Assembly: GCF_017833295.1 (NCBI RefSeq)
Contig: NZ_JAFIBW010000001.1
Coordinates: forward strand, 2,170,001-2,234,000
Direction: 5' to 3'
From: Methylobacterium sp. PvR107
GTDB lineage: Bacteria > Pseudomonadota > Alphaproteobacteria > Rhizobiales > Beijerinckiaceae
DNA length: 64,000 nucleotides
In this document: positions 3,656 through 29,527 of the stretch, one piece after another
How the letters are laid out: every line of letters begins with the position of its first letter
How positions within the stretch are numbered: position 1 is the first letter of the stretch
Program-made: the position numbers and the translations under genes
Notes under the pieces: model-generated
Databases searched by the model: none
Told to the model about the DNA's origin: nothing
Seen by the model: only the letters and a program-made list of their open reading frames with translations

Positions 3656-4186
3656 TCAGACGCGGGTCGGCGGGGCGTTCCGAGCGGCGCCGAGCGGGCG
3701 CTGCATCAGGGTCACGTCGAGCCAGCGCCCGTGCTTGTACCCGACCCCCGACAGGGTCCCGACCGGCGTGAAGCCGAGCTTGGCATGCAGTGCAATGGAG
3801 GCGGGAGAGCCGCTATCGGCGATGACGGCGACCATCGTCCGGCAGTCCATCCGCTCGCATTCCGTGATCAGGGCCGCGAGCAGGAGGCGGCCGATTCCGC
3901 CGCCGCGGCACGCCTGCGCGACATAGATCGAGTCCTCGACCGTGGAGCGGTAGGCGGCGCGCTGATGGTAGGGGCCGGCATAGGCATAGCCGGCGACCGA
4001 ACTGTCCCGCACGGCCACGAGATAGGGGAATCCGCCCGCGCGCAGGGCCGCGAAGCGCCGTGCCATCTCGTCGAGGGCAGGCGGCTCCGTTTCGAAGCTG
4101 GCCGTGCTGGTGCTGACGGCGTTTCCATAGATCGCCGTGATGGCCGTCAGGTCGGCCTCGGTGGCTGGGCGTATTCCGTTTGTCAC
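3656..4186 (-). CDS. GNAT acetyltransferase, phosphinothricin/methionine sulfoximine type
   Basis: A 176-residue GNAT N-acetyltransferase close to the Pat/Bar/YncA group. It starts IRPATEADL, has the VEDSIYV strand and the acetyl-CoA loop RGGGIGRLLL in motif A, and ends with the typical LGFTPVGTLSGVGYKHGRWLD-like block. Such enzymes acetylate the amino group of methionine derivatives or phosphinothricin-like analogues with acetyl-CoA. I chose the GTG at 4186 because the domain begins right after it; a TTG at 4222 adds twelve residues without homology and neither has a clear ribosome site. Substrate specificity is inferred from family only. Confidence 0.85.
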   Translation of the reverse strand: MTNGIRPATEADLTAITAIYGNAVSTSTASFETEPPALDEMARRFAALRAGGFPYLVAVRDSSVAGYAYAGPYHQRAAYRSTVEDSIYVAQACRGGGIGRLLLAALITECERMDCRTMVAVIADSGSPASIALHAKLGFTPVGTLSGVGYKHGRWLDVTLMQRPLGAARNAPPTRV

Positions 4187-4336
4187 GGCGCGAGGATACG
4201 CGGCCGACGGCGAGAGCGGCAACGGCTCAGGCTTGCGGCGCTGACATTTTAATCGCCGCGCGCGCGAGACGCGCCGCGCGACGATGAGCGGGGCGGCGCT
4301 GGGCGCCGCACCCGTCGGGCGTTCCGGCCGGGCCGC

Positions 4337-4546
4337 CTACTCGGCCGCCGACATCTCTGCGGTGAAGTGGCCGCACCAATCCTTGGACGCGACCACCGGC
4401 CAGAGGCCCTTGGATTCAGGGGCGGGCTGGCTGACCGGTGGATTGAACCGGCAGAGGCCCTCGTCGCCCTGCGCGCTGGCGCCGTTGAGCTTGTGATCGT
4501 CGAAGAAGCGGCAGCTCTCGCAGGCGGCGTTCGCGGTACCGGCCAT
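4337..4546 (-). CDS. small four-cysteine protein
   Basis: A 69-residue protein that I do not recognise by name. It has four cysteines, C9-x-x-C12, C32 and C58, in a spacing that could bind one zinc or an Fe-S cluster, with conserved-looking contexts CESCRFF, LCRFNPP and DWCGHF. The ATG at 4546 is preceded by GGAGAG at ideal distance; the ATG four codons upstream lacks a site. Aromatic residues around each Cys resemble small high-potential-iron or zinc-ribbon proteins, but no assignment is made. The gene stands alone between oppositely spaced neighbours. Confidence 0.6.
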   Translation of the reverse strand: MAGTANAACESCRFFDDHKLNGASAQGDEGLCRFNPPVSQPAPESKGLWPVVASKDWCGHFTAEMSAAE

Positions 4547-4766
4547 CGGTCTCTCCATCGTAGTGATTGCAGTGGCGCGACCGAGTTCGCGATGCGCCCC
4601 GCACAGTTCTTAATTAGAACAGCTACAAAGAACGGTCAACGATCTGGCTTGGCTGAGGCTTGCGGCTGGGGTCCATCCCGGCAGGGCTTTTCGATAGGGC
4701 GGCGGGTCGGCCGTGCGTGCGGGATCGAGCGGCGGTGACGCCGCCGGCTTAGGTAGCAGACGCAAA

Positions 4767-4797
4767 GAAGCCGGACCCTGGATCAGAGTCCGGCTTC
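4767..4797 (-). terminator. rho-independent terminator candidate
   Basis: A perfect 10-bp inverted repeat (GAAGCCGGAC / GTCCGGCTTC) with an 11-base loop, about 70 bp downstream of the small secreted gene at 4866-5066. On the minus strand the stem is followed by TTTGCGTC, a short T run. It most likely ends that transcript. Confidence 0.6.
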
Positions 4798-4865
4798 GAA
4801 CCGGTTGCGCGTTCGATCCGAGTTCCGCGTTCGCAGGACCTGGACCGTTTGAGCTGGGAGTCGGC

Positions 4866-5171: not shown

Positions 5172-6308
5172 TCAGCATGCGAGACCGGTGACCAGCCGGA
5201 CGAGTTCCGACTGACGGGTCGCGCCGGTCTTGGCGAAAATCGCTTTCAGCTGCGAGCGGGCGGTGGCAGCCGTGATCGCGAAGCGGGCCGCCGCTTCCGC
5301 CAGCGAAGCGCCGCCGGAAACAGCCTGGGCCAGACGCGCCTCTGCAGGCGTGAGCCGGTAGGCGACCTGCAGGATGGCTGAGGCCGGGGCCCGCGCTGCC
5401 CCTGGGATGCTGCCCAGGAGCAATGTGCACCCACCCGCGAACAGGCCGCGGCTCGGCCCGACGAGCGGGATGACGTGGATCACGATAGGCGGCGCGTCTT
5501 CGCGGGCCACGACCACGGCGGAGATCGGCGGTCGGCCGGCCGGGCGTCCCAAAGCCTCCAAGTGTCGGGCGGCCTCGGGCTCCGCGGCGGTGAGGCGTCC
5601 GCCAATGAGCTTAAGGTCGCGGCCGAGCAGCGCGCCGAACGCTGCGTTCCAGCACACGGCGCGCCCCTCGGAATCGAGGATCAGGGCCGCGCGCTCGATG
5701 ACGTCGAAGGCCTGGGTCATCCCGGCCAGCCGGGCTTTCTCGACCATCGCGGTGAGCAGGCCGGCACGCCGGAGAAGGGGTGACAGAGCAGCCAGGCGCG
5801 TCTGCTCATGCGGCTCGTACGGCCCCTGCGCGATCGTCCGCTGCAGCGACAGGCACCAGAGCCGGCCCTTCACCTCGAACCCGATCCCCGCAAACCAGCG
5901 CAGGCTGCGGGATGCGAGCAGGTCCTGGTAATAGGGAAGCTGGGCGAACTCCTCGGGCGAGGTGAAATCCTGATCGACCGCGATGCCGCGCTGTCGCATC
6001 AGCGGAATGCCGCGCAGCCGGTGGTCTTCGCGATGCCAGCCCTCATCGAAGTAGCGGCGCGAGGCGTCGGCGAGAGAGGGCGTGCACAGCGCGTCGAGCG
6101 CCGTGCGGTCCGAACGCAGGAGCAGCGCGCCTTCGCTGCCGGAGGCCTGCGAGACCCGGTCGATCAGGTCGGGCCAGCGTGCAGCATCGATCACCGCCTC
6201 CTCGAGATCCTCACGGAAACGGGACTCGAGGTCATCCTGCATGGGGATCCAGGAATTGTGGCTCACGCTGCCCATTAGACCCGTTCGCCGGCTGCCGGGC
6301 GTGACCAT
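5172..6308 (-). CDS. LuxR-type transcriptional regulator
   Basis: A 378-residue regulator. The last 60 residues form a LuxR/FixJ-type helix-turn-helix (LTPAEARLAQAVSGGASL, then ATARSQLKAIFAKTGATRQ). The long N-terminal part has no recognised receiver; residues about 190-290 look like a PAS-type sensor (AALILDSEGRAVCWNAAFG). It is therefore a one-component sensor-regulator whose ligand is unknown. AGGA precedes the ATG at 6308; internal ATGs at residues 12 and 23 are alternatives. A dyad 46-64 bp upstream may be its own operator. It has no obvious operon partner. Confidence 0.85.
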   Translation of the reverse strand: MVTPGSRRTGLMGSVSHNSWIPMQDDLESRFREDLEEAVIDAARWPDLIDRVSQASGSEGALLLRSDRTALDALCTPSLADASRRYFDEGWHREDHRLRGIPLMRQRGIAVDQDFTSPEEFAQLPYYQDLLASRSLRWFAGIGFEVKGRLWCLSLQRTIAQGPYEPHEQTRLAALSPLLRRAGLLTAMVEKARLAGMTQAFDVIERAALILDSEGRAVCWNAAFGALLGRDLKLIGGRLTAAEPEAARHLEALGRPAGRPPISAVVVAREDAPPIVIHVIPLVGPSRGLFAGGCTLLLGSIPGAARAPASAILQVAYRLTPAEARLAQAVSGGASLAEAAARFAITAATARSQLKAIFAKTGATRQSELVRLVTGLAC

Positions 6309-28778: not shown

Positions 28779-29160
28779 GGCCTCGCCTCGTGGGTTACGA
28801 GACGACGCGGCGCCGGTCATCCTGGGTCAAGGCCGTAGCCGGCAGCCGCGCCGGTCGCCCCGCGGCCAGGCCTCTCAGCGGCTCAGGCGGGACGACGGCA
28901 CGGGGCCGGGCACGGCAGGCACGATCGGTCGGGCACGTCGCTTCGCGGGTCGCTGCTGAATGGGAGCGCGGCGTCGCCGGAGACGATAGCGCGCGGCTGC
29001 GTCGTGCGCCCGCGCGGAAGGCCCGTCAAGCCGAAACAGTTCCCGATCCCGTGCGTTCCGACCACCCGCTGCACTCCGCGCGCCGGTGTCGCACCGCGGC
29101 ACCAACCCCCTCCACGGAGGATAGCGGCCTCCCTATGAGAAATATAAGTGTTGCGCTCGC
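28779..29160. other. intergenic region before mgtE and pqqA
   Basis: This stretch separates mgtE (leftward) from the pqqA pair (rightward). It is GC-rich in its left two thirds and AT-rich from about 29130. I see no gene, and no recognised magnesium riboswitch on the mgtE side. An in-frame ATG at 29134 would add 28 residues to the first PqqA, which I reject. Confidence 0.45.
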
Positions 29161-29189
29161 TTGTATTGCGTCCAAGATATTGCCTATAT
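29161..29189 (+). promoter_or_regulatory. pqqA promoter candidate
   Basis: TTGTAT (29161-29166) and CTATAT (29184-29189) with a 17-base spacer, inside an AT-rich patch 30-58 bp before the first pqqA ATG. TTGCGC at 29151 with AAGATA at 29174 is an alternative. Neither is strong. Confidence 0.25.
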
Positions 29190-29218
29190 GCCTCTCAGCA
29201 ACAGCGAGGAGAAGCGCC

Positions 29219-29308
29219 ATGGCTTGGTCTGCCCCGATCGTGTCCGAGATCTGCGTCGGCATGGAAGTCACCAGCTACGAGTCGGCTGAGATCGACACCT
29301 TCAACTAA
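29219..29308 (+). CDS. pqqA: PQQ precursor peptide PqqA, copy 1
   Basis: A 29-residue peptide that is the ribosomal precursor of pyrroloquinoline quinone. It has the cross-linked pair E16-V-T-S-Y20 (ExxxY) that PqqE joins and that becomes the PQQ skeleton. The sequence is almost the Methylobacterium PqqA I remember, differing near the N-terminus (MAWSAP rather than MKWAAP). AGGAG lies 7-11 bases ahead. No pqqB, C, D, E or F gene is near, so it works with a distant pqq operon. Its coding DNA is identical to copy 2. Confidence 0.95.
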   Translation: MAWSAPIVSEICVGMEVTSYESAEIDTFN

Positions 29309-29388
29309 GTCACTGTGATCCGAGGTGAAATATGCCTCGGTCAACGTGGTCTCAAACTAAAATATCCGAAATTCTCCAGGAGGAAAAC

Positions 29389-29478
29389 ATGGCTTGGTCT
29401 GCCCCGATCGTGTCCGAGATCTGCGTCGGCATGGAAGTCACCAGCTACGAGTCGGCTGAGATCGACACCTTCAACTAA
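29389..29478 (+). CDS. pqqA: PQQ precursor peptide PqqA, copy 2
   Basis: The same 29-residue peptide as copy 1, 170 bp downstream, with no synonymous change. Its own ribosome site AGGAGG is stronger than that of copy 1, and the 80 bp between the genes differ entirely from the flank of copy 1. The stop is followed by a strong terminator, so one transcript from upstream of copy 1 would carry two doses of precursor. The E16/Y20 pair is intact. A silent or regulatory role cannot be excluded from sequence. Confidence 0.95.
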   Translation: MAWSAPIVSEICVGMEVTSYESAEIDTFN

Positions 29479-29499
29479 GTCGACGACCGCACGGTTTGG

Positions 29500-29527
29500 G
29501 CGCCGCTTCACTCGAAGCGGCGCTTTT
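29500..29527 (+). terminator. rho-independent terminator after pqqA
   Basis: A perfect 10-bp stem (GCGCCGCTTC / GAAGCGGCGC) with a 4-base loop, followed by TTTTCGTTT, 22 bp after the second pqqA stop. It fixes the end of the pqqA-pqqA transcript and excludes readthrough to further pqq genes. Confidence 0.92.

Follow-up and report, generated by a model that had tools for sequence, protein, structure and literature searches.

Two identical pqqA genes that stand in tandem in the 64,000-nucleotide window (the whole stretch of DNA analysed here) are probably the coding part of a self-contained, separately controlled transcription unit supplying the PqqA precursor peptide for PQQ. The original prediction had likewise proposed a precursor dosage unit away from the operon, and this is the best-supported reading, although base identity between the copies, on which that prediction relied, is not its signature. 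More is learned from a conserved island upstream of the first copy than from any other part of the locus, and this island had been overlooked.

The two genes, of 29 codons each, are the same at all 90 coding bases; the identical run extends to 94 bases (29218–29311 against 29388–29481) and the starts are 170 bp apart, so the tandem arrangement that had been described is confirmed by measurement. The separate ribosome sites are also borne out, with GAGGAG before the start of copy 1 and GGAGG before that of copy 2. Both copies score above the cut-off of Pfam PF08042, and the second matches NCBIfam TIGR02107 with 39.9 bits (cut-off 20). The E-x3-Y core is present in both, and its two conserved positions are presumably the glutamate and tyrosine that PqqE joins. 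Cross-linking of a Glu and a Tyr within PqqA by PqqE has been reported (PMC9851590). On the opposite strand, the pair is flanked to the left by an MgtE-type magnesium transporter and to the right by a NupC-like nucleoside transporter (414 bits, below the model cut-off of 442). The surrounding 11 kb (L034) encode no relatives of PqqB, PqqC/D or PqqE (tblastn, E ≤1e-10, 40 % identity, 30 % coverage). The genes therefore lie away from any pqq biosynthesis operon, in which pqqA adjoins pqqB-C/D-E, as had been claimed, and they belong with the orphan pair of Methylorubrum extorquens AM1, two pqqA genes outside the operon. Positions are listed in the table.

Features of the orphan pqqA locus (positions in the window)
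Feature	Position	Strand	Basis or remark
Conserved promoter/operator-like island upstream of first orphan pqqA	29133..29190	+	Conservation, single genomic site
Left arm AATATAAG of proposed dyad	29141..29148	+	Invariant in 80 sequences
Right arm CTTGTATT of proposed dyad	29160..29167	+	Overlaps −35-like hexamer
−35-like hexamer TTGTAT	29161..29166	+	Putative, from conservation
−10-like hexamer CTATAT, 17 bp after −35	29184..29189	+	Putative
Orphan pqqA copy 1, 29 codons plus stop	29219..29308	+	Pfam, base comparison
Spacer with G+C hairpin and ribosome site, without island copy	29309..29388	+	
Orphan pqqA copy 2, identical to copy 1	29389..29478	+	Pfam, NCBIfam, base comparison
Terminator-like intrinsic hairpin	29498–29525	+	About 20 bp after second stop

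A check of the genome for pqqABCDE and for extra pqqA genes found one further copy (G000:C1:1168243), 1.03 Mb from the pair, which stands at the head of pqqB, a fused pqqC/D and pqqE. It departs from the orphan copies at 9 of 90 coding positions. Upstream of operon pqqA, a direct repeat TCTTA-N6-TCTTA was seen by eye (L134 3180–3195), with a few variants and in both operon types; it looks like a response-regulator site. In strain DM4, mxbM is reported to adjoin pqqA, and the single mention of pqqA in that start-site study concerns the operon gene (PMC9320726).

A PqqA match (E up to 0.05) was found in all 111 Methylobacterium genomes, of which 88 carry an orphan locus, 20 an operon tandem and three neither. 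A tandem is present in 107 of them, 87 orphan and 20 operon-type, so that the duplication is not confined to this assembly; as the present genome is also a single contig, an assembly artefact is unlikely. One tandem locus was fetched from each of 100 genomes, and 13 more stretches from the other 11. Among the 100 loci, the tandem is accompanied in 28 by MgtE together with one or more further neighbours known from the window, in 33 by MgtE only and in 20 by none of them, and in 19 it stands directly before pqqB. No relatives of PqqB, PqqC/D or PqqE were found in the 81 non-operon stretches, a few of which end early at contig ends. Orphan tandems are also present in G019, G073, G077, G078, G083 and G093 (in G019 and G077 contig ends left one full copy by script, and the pairs are taken from the PqqA matches), and G039 combines an operon-type copy with one orphan; these seven additional cases were assigned by island and peptide type. 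The operon-tandem genomes comprise 19 in which the pqqB neighbour was checked and G109, in which two operon-type copies were recognized by peptide type. Only one operon-type pqqA is seen in G025, G037 and G110, and the orphan unit can therefore be lost, or be missing from draft assemblies.

Between one and four copies are present at each orphan locus. The four at the start of a contig in G047 (L077 69–635) are identical 159 bp units, reflecting either recent amplification or an assembly matter. Two other genomes have pqqA copies in unusual settings. G009 has a further isolated pqqA of the WTAP type, without the island (L137 5040), beside an ORF (4041–4856) that matches a shikimate dehydrogenase domain. 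In G013 (L140), a pqqA at 4574–4663 on the plus strand is accompanied, about 1.6 kb away at approximately 6150–6240 on the minus strand, by a second with an altered C-terminus.

The island is a sharp block of 55–60 bp, present ahead of the first orphan copy at 87 of the 88 orphan loci of the genus; the one exception is G047, whose contig ends 68 bases upstream. In the window it reads CTATGAGAAATATAAGTGTTGCGCTCGCTTGTATTGCGTCCAAGATATTGCCTATATG. Across 79 loci, the mean frequency of the most common base in successive 12-base bins of the island is 0.90, 0.89, 0.91, 0.83 and 0.77, compared with 0.37–0.42 in the seven bins just upstream, and 27 of the 65 columns in the alignment of 80 loci are invariant. 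A 34-position template in which four positions are free is matched with at most two mismatches in 79 of 81 orphan loci and in six of the seven added ones; L058 has a form one base shorter, and G077 also has the shorter form. From the start of the template to the start codon there are 80–85 bases in most loci, 162–166 in another group, 181 in L058 and 194 in L109. The island is retained across the differing gene neighbourhoods of the orphan unit. It is absent from the 19 operon-tandem loci (11–16 template mismatches), from the 18 single operon loci with pqqB checked (12–16; L137 is outside this count, having no pqq enzyme gene beside its pqqA), from six further loci with operon-type peptides (13–15) and from G109 (16).

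Within the genome, the island was found at one site. A profile search of the whole genome at E up to 10 found this site only among the 150 of 934 first-look candidates that were scored. A search with its left 17 bases, allowing three mismatches, also matched only here, the reversed control likewise giving one. Of the eight matches to the right half-site, seven had three mismatches, and its reversed control gave 17, so that search is uninformative. An island-bound regulon was considered and rejected, as the profile and left-half searches each gave the single site. Among 199 genomes of the family, the profile strongly matches seven Methylobacterium genomes, with marginal matches in other genera (G161, E 0.005; G168, E 0.008); the misses listed within the genus (G032, G105 and G025) are operon-type or single-pqqA genomes. 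In a collection of 84,980 species, an exact spaced pattern was found in 43 stretches, all titled Methylobacterium or Methylobacteriaceae, although this pattern misses other forms of the island because it demands CTTGTATTG and GAGAAATATAAG.

The island has the look of a weak sigma-70 promoter, and its imperfect dyad would be centred near −42. A consensus promoter scan called no promoter in the region, the −35 and −10 matches being weak. The arms of the dyad are symmetrical at seven of eight positions in the window and at six of eight in loci with CTTGAATT or CTTGTGTT as the right arm; in L058 and G077 the arms stand one base closer together. Since the symmetry is imperfect and the arm spacing varies, this may not be a true dimer site. 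A position near −42 is a usual one for a class II activator contacting RNA polymerase. Measured from the putative start site, the island would fit that arrangement, a dyad near −42 together with a weak −35, with the imperfect symmetry noted. Transcription would probably start from one promoter inside the island, at about 29196, and an activator bound at the dyad overlapping the −35 could contact RNA polymerase; both copies would then be read from their own ribosome sites on one transcript, which would stop at the terminator at 29498, and the peptides would presumably be used by PqqD and PqqE.

The terminator that had been described as closing the unit is seen as a terminator-like hairpin, and shuffles of the region contain on average 0.6 terminator-like sites. 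Over 99 loci in total, the tails after the last copy fold with a mean z of −3.75 at orphan loci against −0.27 at operon-type loci, which fits an orphan unit that stops at this point and an operon that reads on into pqqB. The hairpin in the window's spacer has a z of −1.65, which shuffles often equal, and the spacer means are −0.78 for 92 orphan and −1.24 for 19 operon spacers. No role is claimed for these hairpins, because they are only weakly beyond shuffled sequence. None of the 111 spacers contains a second copy of the island, the best match having 14 mismatches over 34 positions.

The peptides also differ between orphan and operon genes. Residues 3–6 read WAAP in all 18 single operon copies and WSAP, WTAP or WSTP in all 173 orphan copies (81 loci); in the 38 operon-tandem copies they read WSMP (22), WSLP (10) or WALP (6). 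These counts exclude L137, L140 and 15 additional loci. Outside these residues, the peptide hardly varies among the classes. The E-x3-Y core is found in every orphan copy counted, the motif having been part of the search filter, and a Pfam family search without that filter lists the same orphan copies. The second operon-type copy of G109 (L217, minus strand) reads AESLVGMEV, altered within an otherwise conserved stretch.

Base identity does not hold up as a general property. Only four of the 100 loci show it between their first two copies, the first and last copies differing by a median of 5 bases, and identity was therefore rejected as the main signal of the locus. In the window, L061 and L086, identity stops within 1–3 bases of the coding ends, and in G047 it spans the four whole units. 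It had also been suggested that gene conversion keeps the copies equal. Without exchange since an old duplication, copy 1 would be equally far from its own and from a relative's copy 2; copies within a genome are closer than that in all four groups (mean distances of 5.64 against 6.72, 6.83 against 9.36, 4.00 against 6.51 and 6.41 against 8.54), pointing to conversion or codon bias. In groups of 28, 29, 14 and 17 two-copy loci (L063 and L094 excluded because the trimmed start is not ATG), the observed value was reached in 0, 0, 6 and 0 of 5000 permutations, or 30, 0, 5 and 1 with synonymous sites alone, counts that ignore relatedness and genome-wide codon bias. Within the window's group, 378 genome pairs divide into 161 in which the orthologue is closer, 167 in which the paralogue is closer and 50 ties, which argues against constant conversion. 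In addition, copy 1 of the window agrees at every base with the second copy of another genome. These comparisons are weakly suggestive of a modest effect, either of occasional gene conversion or of shared codon bias. Occasional conversion, together with purifying selection on the peptide, would keep the copies alike.

Could such a pair be plain redundancy, a duplication held alike by conversion or codon selection with no special regulation? The closeness of own copies and the range in orphan copy number would fit this, yet a sharply conserved island and a unit that persists in differing neighbourhoods argue for selection on the unit, and we consider simple redundancy unlikely. Still less probable is that the island is not a promoter and acts as a structured leader RNA or small reading frame. 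It does lie just before the gene, and an ATG at 29135 of the window is in frame with copy 1. However, consensus folding of the island alignment yields three pairs and −1.66 kcal/mol, almost nothing, so a riboswitch-like leader was rejected and the island more likely works as DNA. A small reading frame was likewise rejected: the distance to the start codon varies without keeping the frame, loci with CTTGAATT have a TGA in the frame of the 29135 ATG, and the long invariant runs of the island ignore codon position.

The peptide classes bear on a different alternative, that orphan PqqA peptides have a non-precursor role, for example in lanthanide uptake or signalling, which the island serves. In its favour are the residues 3–6 that separate orphan from single operon copies and the suggestion that an alternative system of lanthanide uptake might include PqqA (PMC11317620). 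The difference is small, however, and does not strictly divide orphan from operon genes, as the operon-type tandem has its own variants; outside these residues the classes barely differ, and a tandem in operon form in 20 genomes fits precursor supply. A non-precursor role is therefore doubtful, and supply of PqqA as a precursor is the preferred function of the unit. Each PQQ consumes one PqqA, whereas the Pqq enzymes are catalysts; separate control of extra precursor genes would therefore allow supply to be set apart from enzyme level. Beyond this, it is conceivable, and we suggest it tentatively, that PQQ is controlled at the precursor level, by a dedicated one-site promoter and a putative regulator sensing methanol, lanthanide or PQQ demand, with doubling of pqqA at the head of the operon providing the dosage in species without the orphan unit. 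A regulator of methanol genes would be expected to bind at other places too; one site per genome would be unusual for it, and this counts against the best explanation.

Earlier publications include those of Toyama and Lidstrom in 1998 and Ge and colleagues in 2015, known here through citing papers. In M. extorquens AM1, orphan pqqA genes have been put forward as the reason why PQQ is still made when the pqqA of the operon is missing (PMC6520949, PMC11317620), so the suggestion in the original prediction that spare copies account for this result was already in print (PMC6520949). Expression of the AM1 orphans pqqA2 and pqqA3 depends on which neodymium source is given: the results section gives a fourfold increase of the orphan copies with soluble NdCl3 compared with Nd2O3, although the discussion reads the opposite way (PMC11317620). 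Deletion of phaR is accompanied by altered expression of two pqqA homologues (PMC6520949). Judging by how the genes are described and by locus tags that follow one another, we infer that both papers concern the same, adjacent genes, probably MEXAM1_RS21885 and RS21890. AM1 thus resembles the window in having two pqqA genes outside the operon, there with condition-responsive expression; unlike here, the AM1 passages on these genes describe no shared promoter island, genus-wide distribution or base identity. The group of genomes in which the island lies some 164 bases ahead of the start codon may, as a guess, be relatives of AM1.

Two pqqA genes are also known as pqqA1A2 in Methylobacterium aquaticum 22A, in which they increase under all methanol conditions and pqqBCDE only with methanol plus calcium (PMC5784242). 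These are perhaps of the operon-head tandem type (19 loci), which lacks island and terminator. Methylovorus sp. MP688, a distant bacterium, similarly has extra precursor genes, five pqqA copies, and PqqA supply there is reported to be rate-determining (cited in PMC11317620 and PMC6520949). The tandem orphan pair is therefore of a known kind, and its genus-wide form, the operon-head alternative and the promoter-like island look new: no report of the island or of a genus-wide unit was found in the open-access literature, a coverage that leaves most subscription papers outside and included few promoter-directed queries.

Distinguishing orphan from operon pqqA may help annotators. For example, pqqA of M. 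oryzae was reported 930 kb from pqqBC/DE (PMC4161386); as the present genome has both kinds, that report could reflect an unannotated operon pqqA. The claimed dispensability of pqqA in AM1 likewise becomes testable. PQQ genes that do not rise with XoxF on lanthanides have been described as unexplained or counterintuitive (PMC11317620, PMC5784242, PMC10848612), and a separate conserved promoter for extra PqqA copies would provide a concrete DNA target for this lanthanide and PQQ question.
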